Positions 6,264-64,000 of a DNA stretch of 64,000 nucleotides are shown here, piece by piece. The position numbers were made by a program, and so were the translations under genes. The notes under the pieces were generated by a model. That model was not told the origin of the DNA, did no database searches, and worked only from the letters and a program-made list of their open reading frames with translations. Location: positions 4,030,001-4,094,000 of the forward strand of contig NZ_QWEV01000005.1 of NCBI RefSeq assembly GCF_003858395.1, in the 5' to 3' direction. Each line of letters opens with the position of its first letter. The first letter of the stretch is position 1. The DNA comes from Acidipila sp. EB88 (GTDB lineage Bacteria; Acidobacteriota; Terriglobia; Terriglobales; Acidobacteriaceae).

Positions 6264-6551
6264 GTTGCTCTCCCTTGAAGGCCGCATCCTGTTGCGCTTC
6301 GTCCGCCGAAGCGTCACTCGAATCCAGACCAGCGTAGATCCTTGCTCAACAATAGATGCAGGAAGAGGGCCGAACGTCGCAGGTGGGCGCTTGAACGCAT
6401 AAGCGCCCGTGCTCAACAAGCCACGGGCGCAGGGAGCAGCCCTCCCCCAGAGCTGCCCACTGCACGAACATAGGGGGTGTCACCTGCGGCTGTAAAGCAA
6501 ACTTCGGTAACTAAGTCCCAAAAAATTGCTGTTGCCGACAGAACAGAAGCA

Positions 6552-7730: not shown

Positions 7731-7754
7731 TGCTGCCCTTGCGCGGGCGAAGTA

Positions 7755-9490: not shown

Positions 9491-9892
9491 ATGCCAGCCA
9501 TGCTTACGCCCAGAGAGGCCGCGCTTCGCCTGGGCATCTCCTACCCGACCATGAAGCAATGGCTCTACAACGGGAAGGTCAAGGCAGCAAAGACCCCGGG
9601 TGGGCACTACCGCATCGATGAAAGCGAACTGGACGCATGGCTGCACAAGGCCCGCGGTCCGGAGACGCCGAAGCGCGAAATGATGCGCACGATTTCGGGG
9701 CGCAACCAGCTTGTGGGCCGCGTGGTGGATTTGCGGGTTGAAGGACTGCTGGCACAGGTCAAGATTTCGATCGGCGGCCAGATCCTCACGTCCATCATCA
9801 CGGCAGATGCAGCGCGCGAACTTAACCTGGTCGTGGGCGAGACGGTGGCTGCCCTGGTGAAGGCCACAGAAGTCATGGTGTTGCGCGTATGA
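9491..9892 (+). CDS. HTH-Mop (TOBE) molybdate-responsive regulator
   Basis: 133 residues in two parts. Residues 4-55 are an excisionase/MerR-like HTH (LTPREAALRLGISYPTMKQW, then GHYRIDESELDAWL). Residues 66-133 are a Mop/TOBE molybdate-binding domain (ISGRNQLVGRVVDLRVEGL through VGETVAALVKATEVMVLRV). The combination is a compact functional analogue of ModE, which instead joins a winged helix to two TOBE domains. Its stop overlaps the modA start (ATGA), so it is the first gene of modABC. It most likely senses molybdate or tungstate and controls this operon. Confidence 0.9.
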   Translation: MPAMLTPREAALRLGISYPTMKQWLYNGKVKAAKTPGGHYRIDESELDAWLHKARGPETPKREMMRTISGRNQLVGRVVDLRVEGLLAQVKISIGGQILTSIITADAARELNLVVGETVAALVKATEVMVLRV

Positions 9893-10728
9893 AAACAATC
9901 CTGAAAAACCAGTCAGGCGCTGGGTGGCAACTGGCAGTGCGCCGGGCTGCAATACTGGCGGCGGTCTGGGCGCTCTGCTGCGGTGGTTCTGCGTTACTCT
10001 CTGCGCAGTCCGCGCACACTGTTCCCGTTGTGCATGTAGCAGCCGCTGCTGATCTGCAACCGGTGCTGCCCGCAGTGCTTGAAACGTTCGAGCACCGCAC
10101 CGGGATCCACGCGGAGGCTACCTACCAGAGCTCGGCGACGCTGACGCAGCAGATCTTCAACGGTGCTCCGTTCGACCTGTTCCTGGCCGCCGACATGAGC
10201 TATCCCCAGCGCCTCGTCGCTGCCGGCCTCACCAACGAAAGCCGGCCCGTGCCATATGCGCGCGGAACGCTGGTGCTGTGGGCACGGCACGATGCCAAGG
10301 TGTTGCGGGGCGGTCCCCTGACGTTCGCCGTGCTGCGCCACCCGCAGCTGCAATCCGTCGCCATCGCGAACCCGGACCATGCTCCCTACGGACGCGCGGC
10401 CAAGGCTGCCATTGCAACCATGCACCTTGCGAGCACTCTGGGCCCCAAGCTAAAGGTGGCTGAAAACATTGCCCAGGCAGCCCAGTATGCCGATTCCGGC
10501 AATGCCGAGGTGGGCTTCCTGTCGCTGACCAGCGCCAGCAGCGCGAAGCTCAGTGCGGATGGCACCTACCTGAAAGTTCCCGAGGAGTTCTACCCGCCGA
10601 TCGTGCAGGGTGCCGTTGTGCTGCACAAGGGTGCCAATGCAGCGGCCGCCGAGCAGCTGCTGCACTTCCTCGCTGCCCCGTCGACCCGCGCGATGCTGGC
10701 GAGTGGCGGGCTGCAGCCGCCACAGTAG
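9889..10728 (+). CDS. modA: molybdate ABC transporter, periplasmic binding protein
   Basis: 279 residues with a long signal peptide: a basic N-terminus, then a hydrophobic stretch around residues 20-38 ending near SAQS. The mature part starts with the family pattern VHVAAAADLQPVLPAVLETFE and contains the anion-binding SSATLTQQI and LFLAADMSYP motifs. It captures molybdate for the ModBC channel. It overlaps the upstream HTH-Mop gene by four bases and precedes modB by 11 bases. Confidence 0.94.
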   Translation: MKTILKNQSGAGWQLAVRRAAILAAVWALCCGGSALLSAQSAHTVPVVHVAAAADLQPVLPAVLETFEHRTGIHAEATYQSSATLTQQIFNGAPFDLFLAADMSYPQRLVAAGLTNESRPVPYARGTLVLWARHDAKVLRGGPLTFAVLRHPQLQSVAIANPDHAPYGRAAKAAIATMHLASTLGPKLKVAENIAQAAQYADSGNAEVGFLSLTSASSAKLSADGTYLKVPEEFYPPIVQGAVVLHKGANAAAAEQLLHFLAAPSTRAMLASGGLQPPQ

Positions 10729-48081: not shown

Positions 48082-49047
48082 CTAAGCGAACGGGCTCTCA
48101 AGCAAGTTTGTCAGAGCGGAGTTTCCAGGGGCCGTGCCCGGCTGCCACAGCACCAGCAACACGCACACTGCGAGCGCCACGGCAGCAGCCAGCCAGGTTG
48201 TCGAGGGCTCAGCCTGGGAAAGCACCATGGCTTCCATGGCCGCGACCAGGAACTGTATCCACTGTGTGACGACGACCTGGTGGGTACACAAAGGTGACCG
48301 GGTCAGCAGCCACAGGAGGGCGGCATAGGGTACGGCGATGCCGAGCGTGCTGAGCAGCAGCATCGCGGAGAGTTCGCTACCGGCCCACACGTGTGGTGCT
48401 GCGAGTCTCGGGGCTGGTTCAACCACAAAGCTGACGCTGCCGAGCAACACTGCGGCGACTGCACACTGCAGCGCGAGCGAGCGTACCAGCGAACGTAGCG
48501 GGTGCGGTCCAAGGTCACCGCGCAGCTGCACCGCAGCCATTCGCAGTCCGGAGGCTTGTGTGGCAACGGCCAGCAGCGACAGCAGCGCCCACGCTGCCTT
48601 GTTCCAGGCGAACGGCACGGATCCGTTCAGGAGCACCAGGGTTGCGCCGACAGCTGCCGACAGGGGAAGGATGAGCGAACCCGCGGCGAGTCCGTCCGCA
48701 AGGGCAAGCATCAACGGCATCGTGGCAGCGCAAAGCGGGGCCCAGCCACTTGCCCCATGCTCGCCGGCGACGATCAGCAGGGCGGCTGGCGCTGCAAAAA
48801 GCAGCACTGCCAGGAGGAGGCTGCGCGCGACAGGCACGCGCCCGCTGCTGGTGATGGGCGGCCCACTCGCACGCATCGTCTTTCGCATAAAGATGGACGC
48901 GCACAGCAACCAGGCGGCCGCCTCCAGGTGCAGCATCGCCGCCAGGGCAAAGGGAGGAGCCAGGCTGCTCGCAGTGGGTGCGATGATCCAGCTTGAACCC
49001 CACAGACCGCTGATGCCGAGGAGCAGGAGCACGGAGCGTCGTTGCAC
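48082..49047 (-). CDS. EamA/DMT-family transporter
   Basis: 321 residues with about ten predicted membrane helices in two halves, as in the drug/metabolite transporter superfamily (LLLGISGLWGSSWIIAP at the start). The substrate is unknown. The start is a GTG at 49047, 6 bases from a -10-like TACTAT and without a ribosome site. The reading frame extends further upstream, but those residues are not membrane-like. Confidence 0.8.
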   Translation of the reverse strand: MQRRSVLLLLGISGLWGSSWIIAPTASSLAPPFALAAMLHLEAAAWLLCASIFMRKTMRASGPPITSSGRVPVARSLLLAVLLFAAPAALLIVAGEHGASGWAPLCAATMPLMLALADGLAAGSLILPLSAAVGATLVLLNGSVPFAWNKAAWALLSLLAVATQASGLRMAAVQLRGDLGPHPLRSLVRSLALQCAVAAVLLGSVSFVVEPAPRLAAPHVWAGSELSAMLLLSTLGIAVPYAALLWLLTRSPLCTHQVVVTQWIQFLVAAMEAMVLSQAEPSTTWLAAAVALAVCVLLVLWQPGTAPGNSALTNLLESPFA

Positions 49048-49053
49048 ATGTCG

Positions 49054-49059
49054 ATAGTA
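49054..49059 (-). promoter_or_regulatory. candidate -10 for the DMT transporter, leaderless GTG start
   Basis: TACTAT on the minus strand is followed by 6 bases and then the GTG start. TTGTCC about 19 bases upstream of it could be the -35. Confidence 0.5.
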
Positions 49060-49341
49060 GCGGGCATTTGTGCGCTTAGGACAAGCCTGGGTAAGCAGCG
49101 CACGGAAGCTGGAGCACGCCATCTGGATCCAGCTTGCGCAAACCAGGTCCGGGCACGTGCCGGCGCGGGCAGGAGCGTGCAGAATCAGGCAGAGGCGGAG
49201 CAACTTCATGCATTGCGGCCTCGTCCATGCTGTGGAGGCGTAGCCGCAGACGGTGAATGCGCGGCCGCCCGGCAACCTCAGCAGAACGCACTTGCAGGAA
49301 CCAGACGCACCCTCATCGCAGGGGAAGACGGAGTGACCGGA

Positions 49342-50310
49342 ATGCGCCACAGAAACACATTGCTCGCCCTGATCGTAGCCTCGTGGATTGTGCCGCCGGG
49401 AGTGGCGCAGACACGCCGCAGTTCCCCACCCACGGACGAACAGATTGAAGCCCAGGTGGAGCAGGTGTTGCAGCAGGATCACTCGTTTGCCGGCTCCTCC
49501 ATCTCCTCCAGCGTAAGCAAGGGTGTGGTCACCCTGAGCGGCAATGTGCGGAGTGAAGCGGAGAAGACCCTGGCATCGGCGGAGCTTGCAAAAATAGGCG
49601 GCATCAAGACGGTGCTGAACAACCTCAACATCGTGTCGCCCCAGCTGGTAGCGCCGCCACCGCCCCCTCCGCCGCCGACGCCACCGCCCGCCGTGGTCAA
49701 CACGTCAAAGACGCTGACGTTGCCGGAGGGAACGTCCATTCCGGTACGTATCTCCGACGATGTGAATAGCAAGACCGCCAAGGCCGGGGACACGTTCCAT
49801 GGCACCACCGCCAGCAACCTGATGCTGGACAGCTACACGCTCGTGCCGACCGGGACGCTGGTTACGGGGCGCGTCATCGCTGCGAAAAGTGCAGGCCACT
49901 TCACAGGTGCGGCACAGCTTTCCGTGGAGCTTGTGAGCCTGCGGCTCGCCACGAGCGGCAGCGTCCAGGACGTGTCGGTCGTGACCGAGCCGATCTCGAA
50001 CAAGGCCGATGGACGCGGGGCAAACACCGCGGAAAAAGCCGGAGGCGGTGCAGCGCTCGGCGCGGTCATCGGTGCGGTAGCCGGAGGCGGTGCAGGGGCC
50101 GGCATCGGCGCGTTGAGCGGCGGCGCGCTTGGGGCCGGGGCGAACGGGATCACGCGTGGCAAGGAGATTGAACTGAAGCCTGAGCAGCTTCTTGAGTTCC
50201 GCACCAGCGCCCCTTTGCAGGTAACGATTGCGCTTGAGAACGGCAGGCAGATCCTGCTCCCGGCGGTGTCCGGTCCCACGCTGCAGACCCGACCAAATGA
50301 TCAGAACTGA
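49342..50310 (+). CDS. BON-domain glycine-zipper secreted protein
   Basis: 322 residues. A signal peptide (MRHRNTLLALIVASWIVPPG) precedes a BON domain at ~33-90 (DEQIEAQVEQVLQQD, GVVTLSGNVRSEAEK, IKTVLNNL). A polyproline linker follows, then the same beta domain plus glycine zipper (AALGAVIGAVAGGGAGAGIGA) found in the protein at 40.0 kb. BON domains bind membranes or osmotic-stress partners. Probably a periplasmic or outer-membrane structural protein; function unknown. Confidence 0.85.
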   Translation: MRHRNTLLALIVASWIVPPGVAQTRRSSPPTDEQIEAQVEQVLQQDHSFAGSSISSSVSKGVVTLSGNVRSEAEKTLASAELAKIGGIKTVLNNLNIVSPQLVAPPPPPPPPTPPPAVVNTSKTLTLPEGTSIPVRISDDVNSKTAKAGDTFHGTTASNLMLDSYTLVPTGTLVTGRVIAAKSAGHFTGAAQLSVELVSLRLATSGSVQDVSVVTEPISNKADGRGANTAEKAGGGAALGAVIGAVAGGGAGAGIGALSGGALGAGANGITRGKEIELKPEQLLEFRTSAPLQVTIALENGRQILLPAVSGPTLQTRPNDQN

Positions 50311-50379
50311 GTCTCGTGCCGTGGTCATTTTAGAGCGAGGCGCCCGACGCTTCATGGTGCAGGGTCACGCTGGCCGAGC

Positions 50380-50419
50380 CTAGAAAGAAGCCCGATGCGG
50401 CTCAGGAGTGAGCCGCATC
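50380..50419 (-). terminator. intrinsic terminator overlapping the end of the MFS gene
   Basis: GATGCGGCTCA pairs with TGAGCCGCATC around GGAG. On the minus strand it is followed by a T-rich stretch (GGGCTTCTTTCT). It includes the MFS stop codon. Confidence 0.75.
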
Positions 50420-51859
50420 GCCAAGCAGGTGCGCGACTTTGTCTGCGCTTTGGCGCGACCAGGGAGTGTTCGAGGCCCAGCCAAGTACCACGATGCCCAC
50501 ACTGCAACTGACCATGATCCACCAGATGGGGTGCGTGGCGCGGCTGAAGTCAGTGCCATGCGTGCGGCTCGCGTTGACCACGGTGCCAGCCACGGCCACG
50601 CCGAGCGCGGCACCGACCTGGCGACTTGTGGATGCGATTGCAGAAGCGACCCCGGCCTGCGAGAGGGGCATCCCGGCCACGGCATTGTTGGCAATCGCAG
50701 GGTTGATCATGCCCAGGCCGATGCCGAACAGCAGGTAGGAGAACAGCAGGAGAGCAACCGAGGTCGTGCCAGAAAGCTGTGTCAGCAGCAACGTACTGGC
50801 CAGCAGGCCGCTGCCTGAGAGCAGGATCGAAGCGCGGGTTCCGTGGCTTCCCACAAGCCTTCCGGAGAGAGGCGCCGTCAGCATCATCATGACCGCGAGG
50901 GGCAGCGTGTACAGCCCCGTCCGCAGCGCTGAGAGCCCTCGTACCTGCTGCAGGTAAATGGCATTCAAAAACAAAAAACCTGCGAAAGAAGCGAACGAAA
51001 GCACCGCGAGCAGCGTTGCGCTGCTGAAAGGCACACTGCGGAAGAAACGTAGATCGAGCAGTGGCTCCCGACGGCGAGGTTCGTAGAGCAGGAAGCACAC
51101 CAGCGCGACGGCGCACGTTGCGAACAGTCCGATGATGCGGTGCGCGTGCCATCCGGCATGGGGTCCTTCAATCACGCCGTAGCACAGCGAAGCCAGGATG
51201 AGGAACACCAGAGCCTGACCGACGGGATCGAACGAGCGTGCCTGCTTTGCTTTCGATTCCGGTACAAACAGAGTCGCGAGCACCACCGCGATCAGGCCGA
51301 GTGGCAGGTTGATCCAGAAGATGGAACGCCACCCCACCGCCTGTGTCAGCGCTCCTCCGAGCACCGGGCCGAGCGCGAACGAGAGACCTGCGACCGCGCC
51401 CCAGATGCCGATCGCGCGGGCCCGCATTTTTGGGTCCCGTATGGAGTTCACGATGATCGACAGCGCAACGGGGTTGAGCATGGACGCGCCAAGGCCCTGC
51501 ATGACCCGGAAGGCGACCAGCCCCTCGATGTTGGGCGCCACGCTGCACAACCAGGAACCCGCGGTGAACAGAACCAGGCCGATCAGGAAGACTCTTCGCC
51601 TGCCAAAGCGATCGGAGATCGCGCCTGCCAGCATCAGCAGGCTCGCTACCACGAGGGTGTACGCGTCCACAACCCATTGCAGTTGAGAGAAGGTTGCGTG
51701 CAGATCGTGCTGGATCGCGGGAAGCGCGACGTTGACGATGGTGACGTCCATCGTCAGCAGCAGCACGCTCATGCAGCAGATACCGAGGATCAGATTTGGG
51801 CGGAGGAGTTTTCGCTCGTTTGCAGCATCAGCGGTGTTGGCGGTGTCGATGGCGTTCAC
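50402..51859 (-). CDS. DHA2-family MFS drug exporter (EmrB/QacA type)
   Basis: About 485 residues with 14 predicted membrane segments. Motif A is LAGAISDRFGRRRVFLIG and helix 1 carries the DHA2 signature (LLTMDVTIVNVALPAIQHDL). It should export hydrophobic compounds with proton exchange; a MFP partner (EmrA) is not adjacent. The start is the GTG at 51859; no ribosome site is clear, and frames going further upstream to 52117 are not conserved. Upstream lies an inverted repeat that may bind a repressor. Confidence 0.85.
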   Translation of the reverse strand: MNAIDTANTADAANERKLLRPNLILGICCMSVLLLTMDVTIVNVALPAIQHDLHATFSQLQWVVDAYTLVVASLLMLAGAISDRFGRRRVFLIGLVLFTAGSWLCSVAPNIEGLVAFRVMQGLGASMLNPVALSIIVNSIRDPKMRARAIGIWGAVAGLSFALGPVLGGALTQAVGWRSIFWINLPLGLIAVVLATLFVPESKAKQARSFDPVGQALVFLILASLCYGVIEGPHAGWHAHRIIGLFATCAVALVCFLLYEPRRREPLLDLRFFRSVPFSSATLLAVLSFASFAGFLFLNAIYLQQVRGLSALRTGLYTLPLAVMMMLTAPLSGRLVGSHGTRASILLSGSGLLASTLLLTQLSGTTSVALLLFSYLLFGIGLGMINPAIANNAVAGMPLSQAGVASAIASTSRQVGAALGVAVAGTVVNASRTHGTDFSRATHPIWWIMVSCSVGIVVLGWASNTPWSRQSADKVAHLLGDAAHS

Positions 51860-52230
51860 ATTGTCTGGGATGTTGCTGCGCCCTGGACCGATGCGCAAAG
51901 AACAGCTTTTCCGGCGAGCAGTGCGCTCGCCGCTGGAAGATTCCGGAGCCGGAGTGTCCAAGACTTCGGACGGTCGGGATGGTGCCAGCGAGGCCAGGGA
52001 AAAGCGTGACCCCCGCGAAGCTGGAAGCAAAGAGCACCGGGCTGCTGGAGAGTGCACGCGCCGATTCACGCACTTTTCACAACAAAAAGCATGGAAGCGG
52101 CGCTTCAAGTAGAGCACGCGCTCGCACGCAGCGGGATAAGGTTAGAAGTGTGACGAACTACGCCGCAGCAAGACACCAGCTTCTCCCATTAATAGGCAAT
52201 GGCACTGCTTCACCGAAGAAGCTGGCCCGT
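51860..52230. other. MFS/porin divergent spacer with an inverted repeat
   Basis: A 371-base region without a supported gene. It has the 7-base inverted repeat GGCGAGC/GCTCGCC (51913-51931, 5-base spacer), which may be an operator of the MFS gene. A -10-like TAAGGT at 52137 sits 7 bases before an in-frame GTG of the porin. Confidence 0.5.
51913..51931. promoter_or_regulatory. candidate operator upstream of the MFS exporter
   Basis: GGCGAGC-AGTGC-GCTCGCC, a perfect 7-base inverted repeat, 54 bases from the MFS start. The regulator is unknown. Confidence 0.35.
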
Positions 52231-53688
52231 ATGTTTCACAGGAACTGGCCGGTCATGGCCGCGCTGGTGTTGCTGTGCTCCTCGCTGGCCGCAATAGCAC
52301 AGGAGAGCGCGCCGGCACCGGTGGACGAGGATCAGCCGTCCTTTATGAAGCTCCTGGCATCGCACGGGAAGCATGACCTGGCGGACGAACGATGGAATGC
52401 GTATGGCCAGTTCACCTATATCTATGGGTGGAAGCAGGCGTTCTCCGCGGCGTACACCAACGCCGACGGCAGCATCAATTCCCTGCTGCCTACGCCGGAA
52501 CAGAGCTTCACCGGCTCAGCCACGCTCCACCTGGGAGCGAAACCCTGGAAGGGCGGCGAGGTGTACTTTGTCCCGGAACTGATCTCGGAGCGGCCGCTCT
52601 CCAACCTGAAAGGCCTGGGGGGCGCGGTGCAGAACTTCGAGTTGCAGAAGGGCGGCGCGGAAACCCCAACACTGTATGTTTCGCGGATCTACCTTCGCCA
52701 GACTCTTGAGCTTGGGGGCGACGAGGTCAAGGAAGACTCCGGGCCGAGCCAGGTGGGAACGACCTACCGCAGCCGCAGAGTCAACCTCACGGTCGGCAAC
52801 TTCAGCATCCTCGACTTCTTCGACAAGAACGCGTTCGACATCGATCCGCGCCAAGGGCTCTTCAGCCTGGCGTTTCTAACCTACAGCGCGTACGACTTCG
52901 CATCGAACGCGCGTGGTTACTCGTGGGGCGGTGTCTCTGAGCTGTTCTGGGATCGCTGGTCGGCCCGTTACGGGCGCATCACGCCACCCAAGCAGCCGAA
53001 CCAGCTGCCCACAGACTTCCGCCTGGCGAAGTACTACGGCGACCAGATCGAAGTGGAACACGATCACCAGCTTGGGCATCGCGAGGGAGTGCTGCGTGTG
53101 CTCGGCTACCGCAACCGAGAAGACATAGGCCGCTTCAGCGATGCCATCCGCGTCTTCAAAGCGAATCCACTAGAGAATGCTGCCAACTGCACCACCTTTA
53201 ACTATGGGTCGACCAATGCCAATGCCCCGGACCTGTGCTGGGTGCGCAAGCCAAATACCAAGACCGGCATCGGCATCTTCGGTGAGCAGTACATCACGCA
53301 CGGTATCGGCGTGTTTTCACGCGGCATGTACTCCGATGGCAAGACCGAGGTGGACGCCTACACCTCCACGGATCGTTCGGCTTCTTTCGGGGTGCTGGCC
53401 AAGGGAGCACGCTGGTCCAGGCCGCTCGATGTAGGTGGGGTGGGCTATAACCTTGGCTGGATCTCGAATCCGCACGCGCAATACCTCGGGCTGGGTGGGA
53501 TCGACGGGTTTGTGGGTGACGGCCATATTCGCGCCCGATCGGAGCAGGTGCTCGATGCTTTCTACAGTCTCAATTTGCACAAGGCGTACTGGCTGGCCGG
53601 CGACTACCAGCGGATCCGCAACCCAGGCTTCAACGCCGATCGCGGGCCGGTCGACGTCATCAGCGTGAAACTGCACGGCGAGTTCTGA
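52231..53688 (+). CDS. carbohydrate-type outer-membrane porin
   Basis: About 485 residues. A signal peptide (MFHRNWPVMAALVLLCSSLAAIAQ) is followed by a beta-strand-rich sequence ending in F (LHGEF), typical of outer-membrane barrels. The pattern (DERWNAYGQFTYIYGWKQAF and YVSRIYLRQTLELGGDEVKE) resembles OprB-like porins. The start may instead be a GTG at 52150, giving 27 extra residues, because TAAGGT lies 7 bases before it. It precedes a Tat-exported esterase, and together they may serve uptake and processing of extracellular compounds. Confidence 0.75.
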   Translation: MFHRNWPVMAALVLLCSSLAAIAQESAPAPVDEDQPSFMKLLASHGKHDLADERWNAYGQFTYIYGWKQAFSAAYTNADGSINSLLPTPEQSFTGSATLHLGAKPWKGGEVYFVPELISERPLSNLKGLGGAVQNFELQKGGAETPTLYVSRIYLRQTLELGGDEVKEDSGPSQVGTTYRSRRVNLTVGNFSILDFFDKNAFDIDPRQGLFSLAFLTYSAYDFASNARGYSWGGVSELFWDRWSARYGRITPPKQPNQLPTDFRLAKYYGDQIEVEHDHQLGHREGVLRVLGYRNREDIGRFSDAIRVFKANPLENAANCTTFNYGSTNANAPDLCWVRKPNTKTGIGIFGEQYITHGIGVFSRGMYSDGKTEVDAYTSTDRSASFGVLAKGARWSRPLDVGGVGYNLGWISNPHAQYLGLGGIDGFVGDGHIRARSEQVLDAFYSLNLHKAYWLAGDYQRIRNPGFNADRGPVDVISVKLHGEF

Positions 53689-53762
53689 TCCCCGGGTGAT
53701 CGATTGCCGCCGCAGCATGCAAACGCAGGCGCACGCGGCAGATTTTCAGGATAGAAAGAAGC

Positions 53763-55316
53763 GTGCATACCTCGCGACGCAACTTCCTGATCTCCACCGC
53801 GGCTGCGGCTGTTCCAGCAGCGGCAAAAGCTCTCCCCCTGGGCAGCCATGCCGCGGCGCTGCTGGCACAATCCTCCTTTGCGACCTCGTTCCCGAGCGTG
53901 GTCAGCACGCCGAGCGGCAAGCTGCGAGGCACGCTCCAGGATGGAGTGCGCGTGTTTCGTGGCGTGCCCTATGCAGCGCCGCCCGTGGGTCCGCTTCGCT
54001 TTCGACCCACCTCGCCGGTCGTGCCATGGCCTGGCATTCGCGATGCAAACAGCGCTGCGCCGACAGCCCTGCAAACACACCCGCAGGGCCCTACGAGTGA
54101 GGACTGCCTGTACCTCAACCTGTGGACGCCGGAGGGGCCGGGCCCGTTCCCGGTGCTGGTGTGGATCCATGGAGGAGGCTTCACGGCGGGCTCTGCGTCC
54201 GACCCCATGGCGGACGGCGCGCGGTTCGCGCGGGACGGAATCGTCTGCATCACGGTGGCGTATCGGCTGGGAGTGTTTGGCTTTCTGGATGTGGAGCCCC
54301 TGCTCGGGCCCTCCTACGCCGGCTCCGCCAACAATGCCCTGCACGACCTCATCACGGCGCTCCGCTGGACACAAACACACGTTGCCTCCTTTGGTGGCGA
54401 TCCCGCCCGGGTCACAGTGGGCGGACAGTCGGCAGGGGCCAAGCTTACCGACATCCTGCTCGGCGTGCCCGCAGCGCAGTTGCTGTTTCAAAGCGCGATC
54501 TCGGAGAGCGGCGGAGCGGAGCGGGTCTGGTCAACGCAGCAGGCGCGCACCGTCGGCGAAGGCTTCAGCAAGCAGTGGCGGGGACAAAGCGGAAACACCG
54601 TCGACGCGCTGCGTGCCGCGCCAGCCGATCTGCTGCAAGCGCAGGAGCGGTTCATGGCTATCTGGCCGCGACACTTCCCTTTGCGCCCGCAGATCGATGG
54701 CGACCTGCTGACACGTTTGCCCCTGGAGAACGTGGCCACTGGCAGCACGCGCGGCAGGCGATTGTTGATCGGCACCAACCTGGATGAGAGTGCGTTCTTC
54801 CTGGGACCCACGCCCGGCGCCCAACCCACCCGCTCCGACCTGGGCAATCTGTCGCTCGAAGCATTTGATCCAATCCTGGCGCGCTACGCAGCGATCTACC
54901 CGAAGCTGTCTGTTTCCGATCGCTGCATTCGTGCGGTCACCGCGGAGGAGTACTGGATCCCTTCGTTGCGCGTGGCGGAGGCTGCTGCTGGCGCGGGGTG
55001 CGCGACCTGGATGTACCGCTTCGACTACAGCGAGAACGCCGGGCGGCTGCGCGGTTATGCATTTCACTCACTCGAGCTGCGATTTGTATGGCAGGCACCC
55101 GGGCACAGCAAAGGTGCAGCCGAAGCTGCACTGGCGACACAGATGCACACGGCCTGGGTCACGTTCATCAAGGGAGACGCGCCTGCGGCCACGGGGCTGC
55201 CATCGTGGCCGCGCTATGACGCCCAGGCTCGCTCGACCCTGATCCTCGATCGCGAGAGCCGGGTCGAACAGCAGCCACACGCCGGGGAAATGCTCTTGTG
55301 GAGTGGCTCGTTGTGA
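53763..55316 (+). CDS. type B carboxylesterase with a Tat signal
   Basis: 517 residues. The twin-arginine signal is SRRNFLI (4-10), then an Ala-rich hydrophobic run. The oxyanion loop is HGGGF (136-140), the nucleophile Ser223 (GGQSAGAK), and a candidate His lies in YAFHSLELRFVW. The start is a GTG with weak GAAAG upstream, 74 bases after the porin. It shares family with the frameshifted esterase at 44-45.7 kb. Substrate unknown; a secreted ester hydrolase is likely. Confidence 0.9.
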   Translation: MHTSRRNFLISTAAAAVPAAAKALPLGSHAAALLAQSSFATSFPSVVSTPSGKLRGTLQDGVRVFRGVPYAAPPVGPLRFRPTSPVVPWPGIRDANSAAPTALQTHPQGPTSEDCLYLNLWTPEGPGPFPVLVWIHGGGFTAGSASDPMADGARFARDGIVCITVAYRLGVFGFLDVEPLLGPSYAGSANNALHDLITALRWTQTHVASFGGDPARVTVGGQSAGAKLTDILLGVPAAQLLFQSAISESGGAERVWSTQQARTVGEGFSKQWRGQSGNTVDALRAAPADLLQAQERFMAIWPRHFPLRPQIDGDLLTRLPLENVATGSTRGRRLLIGTNLDESAFFLGPTPGAQPTRSDLGNLSLEAFDPILARYAAIYPKLSVSDRCIRAVTAEEYWIPSLRVAEAAAGAGCATWMYRFDYSENAGRLRGYAFHSLELRFVWQAPGHSKGAAEAALATQMHTAWVTFIKGDAPAATGLPSWPRYDAQARSTLILDRESRVEQQPHAGEMLLWSGSL

Positions 55317-55360
55317 TGGCAGGGCGCGTCCTTGGGCGCGCTGCTGCGGAGCCGGTCCAG

Positions 55361-55426
55361 GGTTGTTCCAGGGCCGTTCCAGGGTTGTTCCAGGGCTGTT
55401 CCAGGGCTGTGACAGGGCTGTGACAG
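55361..55426 (+). repeat. six 11-bp tandem repeats
   Basis: Six consecutive units close to GGCTGTTCCAG with no spacers (GGTTGTTCCAG, GGCCGTTCCAG, GGTTGTTCCAG, GGCTGTTCCAG, then GGCTGTGACAG twice). The period matches one helical turn, so all units face one side of the DNA. Confidence 0.9.
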
Positions 55427-55663
55427 GGCAAGAAGCTGCCCCGCTAATGAGCATGGCACGCCATGAACATAAATTCTCCTCAATTGCAACAGCAGGAGTG
55501 AATTTTCGTCGCGGAGCGCACATGCCATCCGGCATTGTGGATTAAATACAAAATCTCATCCACCAAACCATAGAACAGGGTGACCCTTGGTCGGAAAAGA
55601 TGCCCGGAAATGGACATTTCACTTTGGTCCTGTGATTGCACTGCTCCTCTCCAAGAGCCGCCC

Positions 55664-55696
55664 GTAATCACGATCTCAGCCTTGAGTCGTGATTAC
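55664..55696 (+). promoter_or_regulatory. hairpin or operator before the TonB receptor
   Basis: GTAATCACGA (55664-55673) and TCGTGATTAC (55687-55696) are perfect inverted arms; the inner CTCA/TGAG extends the stem to 14 pairs with one bulge. It lies 40 bases before the start codon. Confidence 0.6.
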
Positions 55697-55735
55697 AGAG
55701 GCCGCTATCGAGTTCCCCCTGAGGAGAATCACGCA

Positions 55736-58700
55736 TTGCTGAGATCATCATCCCGCCGGACCATCGTTCTCTCACAGCTTGTTCTGGCTTCGACCGTTGC
55801 GTTGAGCCAGACCACCGCATCTGTGACAGGCGTTGTCACCGACCCCGCAGGCGCTGTCATTCCCGGTGTCACTGTTGTATTGACCAACCCGTCTACGGGC
55901 GTCAAGTACCAGGTCAAGTCTGATTCTGCCGGTTCCTACCGGTTGTCGAACATTCCGCCGGGCCCCGGCTACCAGATCGATGTCACCACCCCCGGCTTCT
56001 CCCCGTACGCAGTCAAGAATGTGTACGTGGACGTGGCGAACACGCGCACTCAGAACGTGCAGTTGACTCCCGGCGGCGCCAGTGTAGAGATCAAGGTCAA
56101 TGCCGATGGCAACGCGGTGACGTTGAACACGACTGATGCCACCATCGGCAACAACTTCGAAGTGTCGAAGCTGCAGGACCTGCCTGTGTACGACCGCAGC
56201 TCGCCGAGCGTGCTCTTTACGCTGCAGCCCGGCATCACATTAGGCGGCGCGACCACCGGTGCCCGTACCGACCAGAACAACGTAACGGTCGATGGCCTGG
56301 ACACGAATGACCTGGCCAACGGAAACTTTACCGTGATCACCGGCAATGCCCCGGTTGACTCCATCCAGGAATTTCGCGGCACAACCGCGGGCTTCAGCGC
56401 GGACAATGGTCCGGGCGGCGGCGGCCAGTTCCAACTGGTTACCCGCAGCGGTACCAACGAGTGGCACGGCAACATCAACGAGTACCACCGCGACAACTCC
56501 ACCACCGCGAACGACTGGTTCGATGCCAATGATGGCGTCGCGCAGCCCGAGCTGGTGCAGAACCAGTTCGGCGGTTCCGTGGGTGGCCCAATCCTGCACG
56601 ACAAGCTGTTCTTCTTTTTCAACTACTTGGGCTCGCGCATTGCAGAGCAGACTGCCGTCGAACGTACCGTGCCTCTGCCAGCATTCGCTGCCGGCACCAT
56701 CTCGTACCTCAACAACAATGCGGGTTGCACCTCAGCGGCGCGCTTGAACACAGATCCGAGTTGCATCTCCTCGCTCAGTCCGACCCAGGTGCAGCAGATG
56801 GACCCGGCGCACGTCGGCGAGAGCCCGCAGGTGTTCGCGCTGCTCAACAGCCGCTATCCTGCAGCGAATGACTTGACTTACGGTGACGGACTCAATAGCG
56901 GCGGCTTCCGCTTCAACTCTCCGGAACCGGACAACAAGACGAACTACACCGGACGTGTGGACTACGCGTTCAGCCCGCAGATTAAGTTCTATGGCATCGG
57001 CAACGTTGCGCGCGAGAACCAGGTCGATGGCGCCGAGCAGTTCCCCGGCGATCCGGCATCGCAGCAGTTCGTGGATCGCAGCTACCGTTATGCCGCCGGC
57101 ATGGACTGGGAGATCAGCCAGTCGAAGTTCAACCAGTTCACCTACGGCAGCACGGTTGCGGACTACAACTACTCGCAGCCGCAGAACGCTGAAGGGCTAT
57201 ACCAGCTCAGCTTCTTCAATGGCTTCACGCCGACGCTCGTGGACAACCCGTACTCCAGCCCGTCGGGGGCGTCCAATCGCCACGTAGTTGTCTCGCAGGT
57301 GAACGATAACTTCACCTGGACGCTGGGACGCCACCAGGTGGAGCTGGGCGGCTACTTCAAGTGGATCCACTACATGGTCGCCACGACCAGCGGCTATGAC
57401 AGCTACAACATCGGTCTTGGCGGCCACGTGTACAGCACGCCCGGCCTCGAGCCCGCCAACCTGCTCCCGTCGAACAGCACCGCGTCGGAGTATTACGACA
57501 ACGCCTTTGTGTCCTCGCTGGGCCGCGTTGCCAGTACCGGCGGGACGTTCAACTACACGGCCGCAGGCACCGTGCTGCCGCAGCCCTCGGCGAACACCCG
57601 CAAGTGGGTCGACTACCAGATGCAGCCGTATATCAGCGACAGCTGGAAGGTCAATCCGCACCTCACGATCAATGCCGGTTTGAACTACCAGTTCTTCACC
57701 GTTCCTTACGAAACCCAAGGGCTGGAAACCATCCAGACGACCACCTTTGACCAGTACTTTGCGGCCCGCGAAACCCAGAGCACAGCCGGCATCACGGGCA
57801 ACAACTCGGTGCCGCTGGTGACATACGTGCTTGGGGGTAAGAAGAACAATGGTCCGGGTTTCTATCACTCCAACTTCCTGGACTTCGCTCCGCACCTGGG
57901 CTTCGCCTTCAGCCCCAGCTTTGATCCGAAGACGGTCTTCAACGGCAGCGCGAGCATCGTCTATGACCGCACCGTGATCAACGCGATCCTGAACCAGCAG
58001 ATCGAGTTTTCCTACCTGTTCCAGCAGAACGTCACCAACCAGAACGGCGACAATTCGAACGCGACGGGTTCTGTCGCCACTGACCCCCGCATCGCTTCGG
58101 CACCGACCGTTTCGGCTCCCGCGACGCCCAAAGCGCCATTTCAGCCATGGGTGACAAATGGCGTACCGGTCGGGCTGCAGGAAGGCCAGTTCAACACAAC
58201 ACTGGATCCAAGCCTCAAAACACCCTATTCGATCCTGCTCAGCTTCGGCATGCAGCACCAGTTCGCAGGCAACACGGTGCTCAAGGTCAACTACGTCGGT
58301 CGCTTCGGCCGCAGACTTTTGGCGCAGGCTGACGCAGCCCAGCTCATCGACTTCACCGATTCCGCATCGGGTCAGACGATGAACCAGGCCATGCAGAACA
58401 TCGAGCGGGAAGTGCGCGCCGGCAAGAGCCCGGCAAGCCTTCCCGCAGAGCCGTGGTTCGAACACCAGTTGGGTCCCAACTACAAGGGCAACCTGCCGAA
58501 CAACACCTCGGCCGCTGCTTCCTCGAACCCGAACCTTGTGCAAATCGGCGACTTTGGCGACTTCATCCAAGCGCTCTCTCCGAACCTGCAACCCAATGTT
58601 GGCATGTCGGCCCAGTTTGGTGAAAACACCATCTTCACCAACAAGGGTTTCTCAAGCTACGGTGGTCTGCTGGTGACGCTCCAGAAGAACCTTAGCCATG

Positions 58701-59437
58701 GTGTGCAGTTCGATGTGAACTACACCTGGTCGCACTCCATCGACAACACCTCCGAAGTTGCGAACGATGGCGCCGCGAGCGGCTATGGTTTTGTCTGCGA
58801 TGCAGTTCACCCGCGCGAATGCCGTGGCAACTCTGACTTCGACACCACGCACTACATCACCAGCGACTTTACCTACGCCCTGCCCTTTGGCCGCGGACGG
58901 TCCTTCGGCAGCAACCTGCCGATGATTGCCGACGAGGTCATTGGTGGCTGGAGTGTAAGCGGCATCCCTTCCTGGCATAGCGGGCAGGCATGGTCGCCCC
59001 TCTCCAACGCCTTCGTCGCGGGCTTCTCAAACGACGCCCCGGCGATCTTTAACGGGGACACGCACGCAGTCCGTCGTGGCATCCACAAGCTTTCGAATGG
59101 CTCCGTCACTGTCTTCGCTGATCCCGTTGCGGCAGCAGCGGCATTCTCCGGACCGGATGGCCTGACGATCGGCAGCCGCAACATCCTTCGTGGACCCAAC
59201 TACTTCAACACCGATGCCGGTCTGGCGAAGACGTTTGCGCTGATTCCGGAACGGAACGTGAACTTCAAATTCCGCGCGGATGCCTTCAACGTCTTCAACC
59301 ACCCGAACTTCGATGACCTCGATTACGGAAGCTACGGTGGCCAGGTCAACATCACTGCCGCGAGCAACTTCGGGCAGCTCACCGCAATGAACGGCAAACC
59401 TCGCGTGCTGCAGCTCTCAGGCCGCATCGAGTTCTAA
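55736..59437 (+). CDS. TonB-dependent receptor with carboxypeptidase-regulatory-like domain (Oar-like)
   Basis: About 1233 residues. Start taken as the TTG at 55736, with GAGGAG 8 bases upstream, giving a signal peptide (RRTIVLSQLVLASTVALSQ). Residues ~28-110 form a CarboxypepD_reg-like domain (TGVVTDPAGAVIPGVTVVLT, YRLSNIPPG). A plug domain (NNVTVDGLDTNDL, NEWHGNINEYHR) and a long beta-barrel ending in IEF follow. This architecture, widespread in acidobacteria, imports or binds large extracellular ligands; the ligand is unknown. The 52 residues upstream of the TTG are open but look unlike signal sequence. Confidence 0.93.
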   Translation: MLRSSSRRTIVLSQLVLASTVALSQTTASVTGVVTDPAGAVIPGVTVVLTNPSTGVKYQVKSDSAGSYRLSNIPPGPGYQIDVTTPGFSPYAVKNVYVDVANTRTQNVQLTPGGASVEIKVNADGNAVTLNTTDATIGNNFEVSKLQDLPVYDRSSPSVLFTLQPGITLGGATTGARTDQNNVTVDGLDTNDLANGNFTVITGNAPVDSIQEFRGTTAGFSADNGPGGGGQFQLVTRSGTNEWHGNINEYHRDNSTTANDWFDANDGVAQPELVQNQFGGSVGGPILHDKLFFFFNYLGSRIAEQTAVERTVPLPAFAAGTISYLNNNAGCTSAARLNTDPSCISSLSPTQVQQMDPAHVGESPQVFALLNSRYPAANDLTYGDGLNSGGFRFNSPEPDNKTNYTGRVDYAFSPQIKFYGIGNVARENQVDGAEQFPGDPASQQFVDRSYRYAAGMDWEISQSKFNQFTYGSTVADYNYSQPQNAEGLYQLSFFNGFTPTLVDNPYSSPSGASNRHVVVSQVNDNFTWTLGRHQVELGGYFKWIHYMVATTSGYDSYNIGLGGHVYSTPGLEPANLLPSNSTASEYYDNAFVSSLGRVASTGGTFNYTAAGTVLPQPSANTRKWVDYQMQPYISDSWKVNPHLTINAGLNYQFFTVPYETQGLETIQTTTFDQYFAARETQSTAGITGNNSVPLVTYVLGGKKNNGPGFYHSNFLDFAPHLGFAFSPSFDPKTVFNGSASIVYDRTVINAILNQQIEFSYLFQQNVTNQNGDNSNATGSVATDPRIASAPTVSAPATPKAPFQPWVTNGVPVGLQEGQFNTTLDPSLKTPYSILLSFGMQHQFAGNTVLKVNYVGRFGRRLLAQADAAQLIDFTDSASGQTMNQAMQNIEREVRAGKSPASLPAEPWFEHQLGPNYKGNLPNNTSAAASSNPNLVQIGDFGDFIQALSPNLQPNVGMSAQFGENTIFTNKGFSSYGGLLVTLQKNLSHGVQFDVNYTWSHSIDNTSEVANDGAASGYGFVCDAVHPRECRGNSDFDTTHYITSDFTYALPFGRGRSFGSNLPMIADEVIGGWSVSGIPSWHSGQAWSPLSNAFVAGFSNDAPAIFNGDTHAVRRGIHKLSNGSVTVFADPVAAAAAFSGPDGLTIGSRNILRGPNYFNTDAGLAKTFALIPERNVNFKFRADAFNVFNHPNFDDLDYGSYGGQVNITAASNFGQLTAMNGKPRVLQLSGRIEF

Positions 59438-59464
59438 GTCAAAGCAACAGGAAGTCACTTATCC

Positions 59465-59505
59465 GAGAGGCGATCGAGCATAATGCGATCGCCTCTCGCT
59501 TTTGC
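59465..59505. terminator. intrinsic terminator after the TonB receptor
   Basis: GAGAGGCGATCG pairs with CGATCGCCTCTC around a nine-base loop, then GCTTTTGCT. It lies between convergent genes. Confidence 0.85.
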
Positions 59506-59558
59506 TCCATCACGACAAGGCTGTTCGCGTGGAACGACCCGGGCAGTTACGCAAGGCT

Positions 59559-60533
59559 TCAGCCGATGGTGAAAACGACGCGTGGTTTGCCCTTGGCCGA
59601 ATCCCACACCGATGCGACGTCTGCAAGCGGGACAGACTTCGTAGCGATCTTCAAGCCGGCAGGCGCAACCGCTTCAAAGACATGGCGAACGGATTGCACC
59701 AGGCCCTTCCTGCTGACACTTCCTACGCCGGAACCCATCAGAGTGATCGCCGCAGAGCGAAGTGCGGCTCCCGGAAGCTCGATGTTTCTTTCACCGCTGG
59801 CGCTTCCAACATGCACGAAGCGGACAGACTTCTCTGCGACGGTCTTCGCCAAGGCCGCAATGACCATCAGGGCGCTCTCACCCCAAAGATAATCGATCAC
59901 TACATCGATGCCTTGCTGGAATGTCGCTGCCAGCGCTTCCTCGAATTCGCCGCGAGCGGCGGCGTGGCCTGGGCCCAGCGCGAACGGTATCGTGACATCG
60001 GCGCCGAGCTGTCTCAACTCCTCAAGTTCCTCCACGTTTCGGCCCGTCGCGATGACCCTTGCGGCTCCCAGGTACTTGGCCAGCTGGACGGCGATCCTGC
60101 CGGCGGTTCCGGTGGCACCATGGACGAGCACCGTCTCACCAGCGGTGAAATGCGAGCGCTCCATCAGGGCAGCCCACGCTGACATGCCGGGGTTCGCGAT
60201 CGCGGCAGCGGTGATGTCATCCAGGGCATCCGGAATGTCTACACAGCGCCTGGGATGCATGGGACAAAGCTCGGCAAGCGCGCCCCAGGGCGCCTCGGGC
60301 ATCGCGAAATACACGCGTGTTCCATCTTTCATGAGCCCGACGCCATCCACGCCAGCCACTGCGGGGTAGACCCCTGCGGCGCTATAGTGAACCCCCGACG
60401 CCCTGGATCTGGTCACGTTGCTCAGCGCAGCTGCGCGTACCGTGATGAGTTCCTCGTCTCCGTGGACAACAGCGTCGTTGAACTCTCCGTAGATCGGCGT
60501 CTTCCCTGCGCCCGTTACGATTGCTGCTTTCAT
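59559..60533 (-). CDS. zinc-free MDR-family oxidoreductase (quinone oxidoreductase-like)
   Basis: 324 residues with the medium-chain dehydrogenase fold: GroES-like N-terminus and a nucleotide-binding motif VLVHGATGTAGRIAVQLAKYLGAARVIATGR. No zinc-ligand Cys set is visible, so it is probably NADPH-dependent reductase rather than alcohol dehydrogenase. AAGGAG precedes the ATG. It is divergent from a TetR gene with a shared palindrome between them, so TetR probably controls it. Confidence 0.88.
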   Translation of the reverse strand: MKAAIVTGAGKTPIYGEFNDAVVHGDEELITVRAAALSNVTRSRASGVHYSAAGVYPAVAGVDGVGLMKDGTRVYFAMPEAPWGALAELCPMHPRRCVDIPDALDDITAAAIANPGMSAWAALMERSHFTAGETVLVHGATGTAGRIAVQLAKYLGAARVIATGRNVEELEELRQLGADVTIPFALGPGHAAARGEFEEALAATFQQGIDVVIDYLWGESALMVIAALAKTVAEKSVRFVHVGSASGERNIELPGAALRSAAITLMGSGVGSVSRKGLVQSVRHVFEAVAPAGLKIATKSVPLADVASVWDSAKGKPRVVFTIG

Positions 60534-60594
60534 CGTGCGTCTCCTTGCGTCCGGCCGCCGACTCTGTCGAGCAGTTACTGCGACCAGCCACTCA

Positions 60595-60615
60595 TTATTG
60601 AACAGCGTTCAATAA
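60595..60615. promoter_or_regulatory. perfect palindrome, candidate TetR operator
   Basis: TTATTGAAC-AGC-GTTCAATAA is a perfect 9-base inverted repeat with a 3-base spacer, midway between the divergent oxidoreductase and tetR genes. Arm length and spacer fit a TetR dimer site. Parts of it (TTCAAT) could be the -35 of tetR. Confidence 0.8.
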
Positions 60616-60632
60616 CCAGATGACCGCTCCCG

Positions 60633-60638
60633 TATGCT
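60633..60638 (+). promoter_or_regulatory. candidate -10 for tetR, leaderless type
   Basis: TATGCT, then 6 bases, then the tetR ATG at 60645. Confidence 0.5.
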
Positions 60639-60644
60639 GGATGC

Positions 60645-61286
60645 ATGAAAGTCAACAAGGCAATCGTCGCAGGTGCGGGACTGGAACTGCTCAACGAGGT
60701 GGGACTGGAGCAGCTTACGCTTCGGCGCCTGGCTACAAAGCTCAACGTGCAGGCGGCTGCTATCTATTGGCACTTCAAGGACAAGCAGGAGCTTCTCGAC
60801 GAGATGGCGACCACTGTGCTGGTGGAGGGTGCGTCCGGCCTGGTCCCGCGGCGCCCATCTGCGGACTGGCAGGTCTGGGCCTCCACGTACGGGCACGGCC
60901 TGCGCAAAACGTTGCTGGCGTACCGTGACGGGGCTCGCATGGTCAGCGGAACCAGGCTAACCAGCACGGAGCCTCTAAAGGCTGGTGAAGCCTTCGGCGC
61001 AAGGATGATTGGTTCTCACTTCGCGCTTCGCGAAGCGGTTGTGCTCCTGAGCACCATCTACAACTACACCCTCAGCTTCGTCATGGAGGAACAGGCCGTC
61101 TTTCCGACTCCAGGCATGCGCTCTCCCCTGTATGCACTGGAAGCGCGCCGCGCGCGGCTAGATCCGGCGCTGTTTCCTCATCACCGGCAGGCCAACACCA
61201 TTCTCTTCGATGGGTATAACCGCCGCTACAAGGAGGGACTGGCACTCATCATTGCGGGAGCAGAAGCATTGAAACAATCAGACTAA
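60645..61286 (+). CDS. TetR-family regulator (TetR_C type)
   Basis: 213 residues. The N-terminal HTH (LEQLTLRRLATKLNVQAAAIYWHFKDKQELLDEM) is close to the classical TetR proteins, and the C-terminal ligand-binding domain resembles TetR_C (HFALREAVVLLSTIYNYTLSF). It probably represses the divergent oxidoreductase and itself, releasing on ligand binding. The ligand is unknown. Its stop overlaps the stop of the convergent glycosyltransferase. Confidence 0.92.
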   Translation: MKVNKAIVAGAGLELLNEVGLEQLTLRRLATKLNVQAAAIYWHFKDKQELLDEMATTVLVEGASGLVPRRPSADWQVWASTYGHGLRKTLLAYRDGARMVSGTRLTSTEPLKAGEAFGARMIGSHFALREAVVLLSTIYNYTLSFVMEEQAVFPTPGMRSPLYALEARRARLDPALFPHHRQANTILFDGYNRRYKEGLALIIAGAEALKQSD

Positions 61287-61975
61287 GTCAAGACCCTGCC
61301 TGCAGGTCCACTGAGCAGTTCTTCATAAAAGTGCAGCATGCTGACAGCGCGGCGCTCGGCCGTTTGTTCCGACGCAAACTGCAGTGCCGCCTCGGACATG
61401 CTGCGCAGCCGTTGCGGGTCTGCTGCCAGACAATCACATGCATCGGCAAACCCTCGTACCATTTGCGGGAGGCTGCCGGGCTCCACTTTGACGGAAGCGG
61501 CATCGGGCACAAACGCTCGTAGGCCCTGATGATTCAAGCCGATCACCGGCAGGCCGCGCCCCGCAGCCTCCAGGATCACGGTGCCAAAAGCTTCACGGAG
61601 GCTCGTGAAGATCAAAGCGTCACAGCGATCGAACAGAGCCGCCATTGCCTCGGGGGAAACGCGGCCAAGAAAGGTCACCCGGTCTTCGAGTCCCAGCGAG
61701 CGAGCCAGACCCTTCATCGCGTCCTCTGTCTCGCCCGTGCCTGCTACGACCATGCGCACCTCCTTCTTGCTGCACGCAGCAACTGCACGCAGCGCGATCG
61801 GGAGACCCTTCTGCGTCACGATGCGTCCGGCCCAGAGGAGTGTTAGGCCATCACCCTTGGTCTTGGGCGCTATCTGTCCATCCTTCGGGGTAAACGCCCC
61901 ATCGAGAAACAGCTCCACGCGTTCAGCCCCTGCGCGGAGCAGGAGAGACCGCGTCTCATGGTTGGTTGCGAACAC
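61283..61975 (-). pseudogene. glycosyltransferase C-terminal half (5' truncated)
   Basis: The preserved part is a GT-B glycosyltransferase C-terminal domain (family 4-like): LTLLWAGRIVTQKGLPIALRAV, the nucleotide-sugar helix SLREAFGTVILEAAGRGLPVIGLNHQG and the tail. The N-terminal acceptor-binding domain is missing. In the same frame only ~16 more family-like residues (REALLASANLVF) can be read before a TAG stop at about 62025, so the rest has been lost or replaced. The GTG used as start is therefore artificial. Confidence 0.75.
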
Positions 61976-61981
61976 GAGGTT

Positions 61982-62176
61982 GGCGGACGCGAGGAGAGCC
62001 TCGCGCGCACTGTTCGCTCCTTGCTAGATACCCCTGTCTTCGCGGCTCGCATGCGTCGATCCGCACGAGAAGAGTTTGAGAGCAAGTACACGGCGCAACG
62101 CAATTACGCCGCTTTTCGCTTTATCTACCAGCAGGCGGCGCGGCACGCCGCAGCCGCAGCTTGCGTGCCATCTTGA
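61982..62176 (+). pseudogene. orphan C-terminal glycosyltransferase tail on the plus strand
   Basis: In one plus-strand frame, EESLARTVRSLLDTPVFAAR, then RRSAREEFESKYTAQRNYAA and FRFIYQQAARHAA, match the very C-terminal helices of a GT-B glycosyltransferase. No upstream part exists in this orientation; the sequence to the left belongs to the minus-strand glycosyltransferase. It is a remnant brought next to it by rearrangement. Confidence 0.6.
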
Positions 62177-62411
62177 ACACCTCACCCTCCCCCGCTTGTA
62201 AAGCTTGCAGTTCGGCATCCGCGTGCTTCCTGCATCGGCATCTGCGTATTACCACCCGGCAGATCCACAACTTCTCTTCTCGATCCCCACTACTTTCCCG
62301 TACCGTTTCTGACTTGCCGTTGGCGCTCTGACCGAAGCAATGGTCAGCGCCTACCTTTAATCTGCCGCGTGTATCGGCGTAGCTCTTTCCTCGCCAGGGG
62401 GAACGGAACGC

Positions 62412-62816
62412 ATGGAACAGCAGAGACTCAACGGGTGGAAAGAAATCAGCGCCTACCTTCAGCGAGGCACGCGCACCGTGCAGCGCTGGGAACTTCACTT
62501 TGGCCTGCCTGTACACAGACCTGCAAACCGTCCGCGCACAGCTGTGATGGCCTTCGCGGAGGAGCTGGAGGTATGGCTTCGGGGTAGCTCACGCGCTACA
62601 GACAAAGGCGAATCCCTCACCGCCGCGGCAAGTTCGTCAGAGCTCATTCTGGAGGTTGACCGACTGGCAAGTAAATCCAAGGAGATTACAGTGGAACTAT
62701 CTCATCTTCGCCAACAACTAGGCACGAGGCCGGACGCACTCATACGTTCAACGCTTCCTGCCAGTTCCCCCCGGTCGGCGAAGCGTGCAACCAGGTCGAA
62801 GACTATGGCTCGATGA
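62412..62816 (+). CDS. acidobacterial-type HTH protein
   Basis: 134 residues. The HTH at ~8-40 (LNGWKEISAYLQRGTRTVQR, WELHFGLPVHR) is a type abundant in acidobacteria, often fused to other domains. A coiled-coil-like segment (SELILEVDRLASKSKEI, VELSHLRQQL) and a basic Ser/Arg-rich tail follow. AGGGGG precedes the ATG. Target unknown. Confidence 0.85.
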   Translation: MEQQRLNGWKEISAYLQRGTRTVQRWELHFGLPVHRPANRPRTAVMAFAEELEVWLRGSSRATDKGESLTAAASSSELILEVDRLASKSKEITVELSHLRQQLGTRPDALIRSTLPASSPRSAKRATRSKTMAR

Positions 62817-62966
62817 GGTATAGCTCCACGTCGCAGGACCGCGTTGTGCAGTACCATGCGCGCTCAGTCCATCTGCGGCAGGTTGTGATGCAATCTCAGC
62901 CGCGGCGGAGATCGCGCGACTAGGATGCACGTCCGCCGGCAGCACCGGCTGCTCAGGAGAAAGCGG

Positions 62967-64000
62967 CTAGACCACTTCGACCTTTGTTCGAGCGAGCACA
63001 ACCTCTTCTCTCACTGGCTGGCCTAACAGGCGACTCTTCAAATTCAAGAAAGGCTGCTCGAAGAACCTGCGGGATAGATACGCTACCAGGACCGAAACAC
63101 TCGCGCAGACAAGAAAGGCTCCACTCTGCAGTGTCAGGTTCGATAAGCCAAGGTGATGGAGCAGTTCATTCACCAACCGCCAAAGCTTTTCGCTCACGAA
63201 CAATTGGAACAGGTACAGGCCGTAGCTTATATACGCAAGGAAGCCGAGGAAGCCCGGGGTTCTTTCTGTTGCGCCTACCCGTCCAGTTCTTGCAGCGTCA
63301 CGGTAGAGCCCGAAGAGGAGCATGCCGGCGCACAGCCACATCCACGGCAAGGCTCGAAGCGCCACCAGACTATTGCTGTTGTGAAAGGCTGCAAGGTACA
63401 ACGTCAACAGCACCAGTGGCGCGCTCATCGCGAGGAGACTGACTGCCACCCGGCGAATATTTGCCTGGTGAATCCTGCCGCGATGGAGCAGAGTCGCCAG
63501 CAGGGCTCCGTAGGCTATGTAGTCGAGCAGGAAGGGTGTCTTGAATCGAATGTCAATGTGTGCATTGTGGCGAATCGCCAAGACACGCAGCACCGGTTCA
63601 AGCACGATAACACTAGCCAGCAGTGGCAGCAGCTTTACCTCTTTCAGGTGTCGCACACAACTGGGCCATAGAAGATAGAAGTGCTCTTCTACGCAGAGCG
63701 ACCAGAGCGGACCGTACTCTCCTGAGGGGGCACCAAAGAGAGGCGCGAAGTTGGACAGGAAAAGGCAGCTGGCGAAGAAGAATCGCCAACTGATCGGCAG
63801 GAAGATCTTGAGCGTGATCAGCACCACCACGAATACTGGCAGGATCCGCAGAGCGCGCTTTATGTAGAACTCGCGGTAGTAGCTCGGTTTGCTCCGGCCC
63901 CGCAGGAGAATAGTGGTGATCAGGAAGCCGGAAAGCAGAAAGAACAAATGAACGCCGTAGTTGCATTCCCCGACCAGCGCATCGAGCAGAGATCCGGGCA
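62967..64000 (-). CDS. acyltransferase 3 family membrane protein (partial)
   Basis: The N-terminus lies outside the window. The frame is open to the edge, with GVHLFFLLSGFLITTILLRG, then FYIKRALRILPVFVVVL and at least seven further membrane helices typical of OafA/YrhL acyltransferases. It moves acyl groups onto surface polysaccharide, lipid or exopolysaccharide. Neighbouring glycosyltransferase remnants fit a polysaccharide locus continuing to the right. Confidence 0.9.
   Translation of the reverse strand, partial: PGSLLDALVGECNYGVHLFFLLSGFLITTILLRGRSKPSYYREFYIKRALRILPVFVVVLITLKIFLPISWRFFFASCLFLSNFAPLFGAPSGEYGPLWSLCVEEHFYLLWPSCVRHLKEVKLLPLLASVIVLEPVLRVLAIRHNAHIDIRFKTPFLLDYIAYGALLATLLHRGRIHQANIRRVAVSLLAMSAPLVLLTLYLAAFHNSNSLVALRALPWMWLCAGMLLFGLYRDAARTGRVGATERTPGFLGFLAYISYGLYLFQLFVSEKLWRLVNELLHHLGLSNLTLQSGAFLVCASVSVLVAYLSRRFFEQPFLNLKSRLLGQPVREEVVLARTKVEVV

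Follow-up and report, generated by a model that had tools for sequence, protein, structure and literature searches.

At positions 61,283 to 62,176 of the analysed DNA, parts of two glycosyltransferase genes stand back to back on opposite strands, which raises the question of whether they mark the endpoint of a rearrangement and, if so, how the two ends came to be joined. The window, by which the whole analysed stretch of 64,000 nucleotides of Acidipila sp. EB88 is meant, lies inside a 4.25-Mb contig (C5, positions 4,030,001 to 4,094,000) of a five-contig, 4.475-Mb assembly (G000) with a stated completeness of 88.09%. The features discussed below, in window coordinates, were:

48,100-64,000, continuing to about 65,900, no strand: stretch for which the anchor regions of relatives had no orthologue-grade match
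60,645-61,286, plus strand: TetR-family regulator, apparently intact (Pfam TetR_N and TetR_C_1)
61,283-62,005, minus strand: GT-A, the C-terminal half (donor-binding domain) of a GT4-type glycosyltransferase (Pfam, BLAST and HMM)
61,283-61,285, minus strand: stop codon of GT-A
61,985-62,005, no strand: junction, the overlap of the GT-A and GT-B homologies (profile and BLAST)
61,985-62,176, plus strand: GT-B, the last 55 or so residues and the stop codon of a second GT4-type glycosyltransferase (BLAST and HMM)
62,412-62,816, plus strand: short HTH-domain protein, the first gene to the right of the GT-B tail
62,967-64,000, minus strand: Acyltransferase_3 family gene, cut by the window edge (PF01757, E 6.5e-19)

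Profile searches and controls

Of the 12 longer relatives of GT-A described below, 8 were used for the GT-A HMM and the GT-A alignments (L078 to L081 were omitted for their longer frames or lower ranks); the GT-B HMM was made from 8 GT4 relatives. The search space for both HMMs comprised 1470 frames of 30 aa or longer, taken from the window plus the 19 kb that follow it. In the reversed window (1396 frames), neither HMM had a match at E ≤ 1.

Minus-strand stub

The minus strand had a 246-aa open frame at 61,286-62,023, closed just upstream by a stop. Glycos_transf_1 (PF00534) matched this frame well above its cut-off (E 1.7e-27; 96.5 vs. 26.4 bits), by which the C-terminal donor-binding domain was present. 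It was also the sole frame matched by the GT-A HMM (E 2.2e-68), and the match covered only profile positions 193-422 of 435, the N-terminal acceptor-binding domain being absent from the gene. The match reached its limit at about 61,993 by profile and at about 62,005 by BLAST, and roughly 170-190 N-terminal residues were gone, varying with the start codon chosen.

The best match to GT-A outside its own genome was in a genome of the same class (G098; 43% over 234 aa), as a 424-aa gene within a 440-aa open frame, and GT-A started at about residue 188 of it. As is expected for so large a family, all 100 genomes (own included) had some GT-A match at E ≤ 0.001. With E ≤ 1e-30 the class-wide search returned 13 of 399 genomes, own genome counted. 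Longer relatives were present in 12 of the 398 other genomes of the class, 11 of these 12 outside the family of the window, and their stop-free frames were 425-803 aa long, none of them of half length. The profile span and the length of these relatives confirmed the proposal of the initial annotation that a minus-strand glycosyltransferase had lost its N-terminal half. The GT-A front half has probably been lost from the genome, because residues 1-204 of the G098 protein, the one query with which the whole own genome was searched, had at E ≤ 10 a match for residues 171-204 only, at the stub itself.

The N-terminal parts of eight GT-A relatives had no convincing match in the window, in the 19 kb rightward or in the sampled contig ends. 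One of them matched contig C4 (E 0.001; 29 aa), which was judged spurious because the matched stretch translates to short repeats and stops, without a glycosyltransferase frame. A scan of genome contigs returned a single, distant locus, with 30% identity to residues 58-181 of the query, which was also rejected.

Plus-strand tail

The GT-B tail was open from 61,985 to its stop codon at 62,174-62,176. It was matched by the GT-B HMM from its first base at 61,985 (positions 343-399 of 405), with an E-value of 2.5e-12 that is optimistic, the 8 sequences of the HMM having been selected for matching the tail. Single sequences supported it with 45-47% identity over about 51-53 aa for the best relative (G072; 47% over 51 aa), at E 1.0e-8 against one genome and 1.4e-10 against the set of loci. 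Pfam was sub-threshold (15.5 vs. 25 bits; E 0.017). Of 99 other genomes, 9 matched the tail at E ≤ 0.001 (10 of 100 with its own), and the own genome had 11 further GT4 matches besides both stubs. The plus strand thus carried, as had been proposed, the C-terminal tail of another glycosyltransferase, on the HMM and on the single-sequence matches alike.

Neighbouring genes

Left of GT-A were the TetR regulator, the stop codon of which overlapped that of GT-A by 2 bases, and a dehydrogenase with an ADH_zinc_N domain. At E ≤ 1e-20, none of the 60 other relatives searched had a match to the TetR gene. The order rightward was the HTH protein, the acyltransferase and then, past the window, a GDSL hydrolase, a histidine kinase and a sigma-54-type response regulator. 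Of 30 other relatives, 14 had matches to the HTH protein at E ≤ 1e-5, mostly to its N-terminal part, and Pfam HTH_23 matched it weakly, under the cut-off. The acyltransferase starting at 62,967 was a 425-aa open frame in the full genome; its partial state, which had been read as a sign of a disrupted polysaccharide locus, was an artefact of the window edge.

Flanking blocks in relatives

Left synteny held to 48.1 kb for the window genes tested, and weakly (40%, in the congeneric genome G001 only) to about 49.5 kb. In all five response-regulator loci read, the kinase, at about 65.9 kb, was the point where synteny resumed. Between the murA-side block and the histidine kinase/response regulator block was a stretch of about 16-18 kb without orthologue-grade matches, which contained an MFS gene, an OprB porin, a carboxylesterase, a large outer-membrane protein, the dehydrogenase/TetR pair, the glycosyltransferase stubs, the acyltransferase and the GDSL hydrolase. 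The ten anchor regions read had four family-level matches (27-40%) to genes of this stretch, none orthologue-grade: two to the large outer-membrane protein (27% in L149 and 32% in L155), one to the carboxylesterase (40% in L153, where the matched gene is orthologous to a different gene of the window, the one at 44638) and one to the acyltransferase (36% over 135 aa in L154). All four were taken as paralogues.

The murA and response-regulator anchors were about 20 kb apart in the genome of the window. In three single-contig genomes they were 2.78 Mb apart (G018; 0.90 Mb by the shorter arc, if circular), 2.70 Mb apart (G071; 1.42 Mb by the shorter arc, if circular) and 2.10 Mb apart (G033). They were on different contigs in 7 more genomes, G001 among them, and a close response-regulator orthologue was absent in 5 of 15 genomes. 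The flanking blocks were thus non-adjacent in relatives, with the boundary resolved only to about 16-18 kb. A rearrangement boundary is plausible here, anywhere in about 48.1-65.9 kb and not placed at the glycosyltransferase junction.

Longer relatives and parental arrangement

A GT-B-like gene, defined as a BLAST match of the tail at E ≤ 0.01 in a stop-free frame of at least 150 aa, was on the same strand as GT-A and about 0.5-5.5 kb from it in 4 of the 12 loci of longer relatives (L075, L076, L078 and L081; tail matches E 3e-6 to 3e-4). A tail match on the opposite strand was found in none of the 12. This count excluded the GT4 neighbour in L060, which was cut by the contig end, and the 12 loci included one contig of 3.2 kb (L069). 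In G098, a flippase and an O-antigen ligase-type gene were beside GT-A.

The sole same-genus genome sampled, G001, had no glycosyltransferase match in the anchor regions read, and no same-species genome was compared; the parental arrangement was therefore not seen. The comparison with related genomes that had been suggested as a check hence returned longer GT-A genes and no parental locus. A DNA search of 61,283-62,420 in 60 relatives returned, apart from the window, only one 30-base match (90%; E 7.8e-4). In the part of the literature that was accessible, nothing recognisable on this locus was found.

Small contigs of the assembly

The end of C1 overlapped its own start (9.4 kb; 99.94%). Contig C2 (L089 and L118) had a direct 10.2-kb copy of its start at its end and, at its extreme end, an inverted copy of about 4.4 kb of its own bases 5834-10227, possibly an artefact of fold-back in the assembly. 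In C3 (L090) an 8,909-bp unit was written almost twice, with 8524 of 8526 positions identical, and in C4 (L091; first 20 of 24.5 kb read) a 14,469-bp unit was repeated; both are probably small circular plasmids assembled as concatemers. By reading, the genes of C4 resemble a Type III restriction-modification pair, a ParA-type ATPase and an integrase. All four contigs, C1 to C4, have the look of small circular replicons assembled from long reads. In C5, a contig read only in parts for assembly flaws, the terminal stretches of about 20 kb at the two ends did not overlap.

The junction and how it may have formed

The GT-A and GT-B homologies overlapped by 9 bp by profile (61,985-61,993) and by about 21 bp by BLAST, in close agreement with the initial annotation, which had them meet at about 61,990-62,015. 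Both stubs were truncated relative to full-length homologues; both pointed away from the junction, and the ends gone from both were the junction-facing, N-terminal ones. GC content had no sharp step across the junction. Just right of it, at 62,000-62,399 of the window, GC skew and AT skew dipped to about -0.2. As a candidate insertion site, no tRNA or tmRNA was found in 40,000-64,000 of the window or in the 19 kb rightward.

With a probability of about 0.75, the site is the scar of a non-homologous join of the C-terminal ends of two GT4-type genes, the N-terminal parts of which were lost or moved. The positions joined did not correspond (GT-A profile column 193 of 435 and GT-B column 343 of 405) and were in opposite orientation, which is why a non-homologous join fits better than the explanation put forward as the simplest, in which two similar glycosyltransferase genes recombined with each other and an inversion or a deletion was involved. 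A crossover between homologous genes joins corresponding positions, and between two inverted homologous genes it leaves full-length hybrids, not two stubs. The two GT4 types are homologous at the protein level, as the GT-B HMM also matched the GT-A frame (E 3.3e-20), but GT-A was only about 22-33% identical to nine aligned GT-B relatives. Among the reported repeats of at least 14 nt none had a copy at 61,985-62,005, a point that weighs little, the sequences of the parents being lacking. Homologous recombination at this site was thus left without support and is very unlikely. It is also very unlikely that the minus-strand stub is a working gene, a 230-aa stand-alone donor-binding half enzyme. 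Split glycosyltransferases, with the donor-binding half as a separate enzyme part, exist; the GT-A frame was open, with a GTG start at 61,975, and an E-x7-E motif was readable in its translation. Against this, the one G098 search of the assembly did not return an acceptor-domain half, and none of the 12 longer relatives was of half length.

An assembly mis-join, by which two real positions would have been wrongly joined and both glycosyltransferases would be intact in the organism, is improbable. The incomplete assembly, the head-to-tail repeats of C3 and C4, the inverted end copy of C2 and the distance between the flanking blocks in relatives are in its favour. However, the missing half of GT-A did not turn up elsewhere in the 4.475-Mb assembly (G098 query) or at the sampled contig ends; the window is interior to one 4.25-Mb contig, and the flaws seen were in small contigs or at ends. 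The proposal that the remnants mark a rearrangement breakpoint was supported in that two truncated ends abut and the flanking blocks are far apart in relatives. It is possible, though rather unlikely, that a chromosome-scale rearrangement, which would have fused the murA and kinase blocks in this species and removed a surface-polysaccharide locus, had its endpoint at the junction itself.

For the non-homologous join, two different GT4-type genes would each have been cut and their C-terminal ends joined back to back, and the DNA with both N-terminal parts would have been lost or moved elsewhere. The parent genes were probably from one surface-polysaccharide cluster. Stubs from a same-strand cluster would also need a reorientation, and because such genes were on the same strand in the loci of four relatives, a reorientation plus a deletion is the likeliest path; had the parents once been divergent, one deletion would have been enough. 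A single clean inversion would have left the GT-A front half somewhere in the genome. The common cluster origin of the two genes, this order of events and the loss of function of both are what we infer from the arrangement.

Function and likeness to known systems

The junction probably leaves no working enzyme. Because neither stub had internal stops, both could be recent or still partly translated. Among GT4-type glycosyltransferases of the GT-B fold (PF00534/PF13692), GT-A shared the C-terminal domain above the curated cut-offs but was without the N-terminal acceptor domain, and the GT-B tail was too short for the Pfam cut-off. Gene remnants occur at deletion and inversion endpoints in bacterial polysaccharide loci. 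The present site was like these in that truncated glycosyltransferase genes abut beside unrelated, apparently intact genes, and differed from them in that the parental locus was not seen in the relatives examined.

The stub pair is an ordinary rearrangement scar, of little significance beyond this genome. It is an example of two gene stubs that resemble coding ORFs and are open to annotation as enzymes, and it may record that a surface-polysaccharide locus was lost or reshuffled in one lineage of bacteria.

Kinase block in the congeneric genome

In G001 (L154 8573-19901, L159; contig C47), the kinase block was followed by a different acyltransferase and then by sugar-nucleotide genes. These, NTP_transferase and GDP_Man_Dehyd/Epimerase genes (Pfam), were some 12-14 kb away from the kinase, on the side equivalent to that of the stubs, and likely sugar-acid genes, named by reading their translations, were about 17-20 kb from it. 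This suggests a variable glycan locus near the kinase block in the genus.
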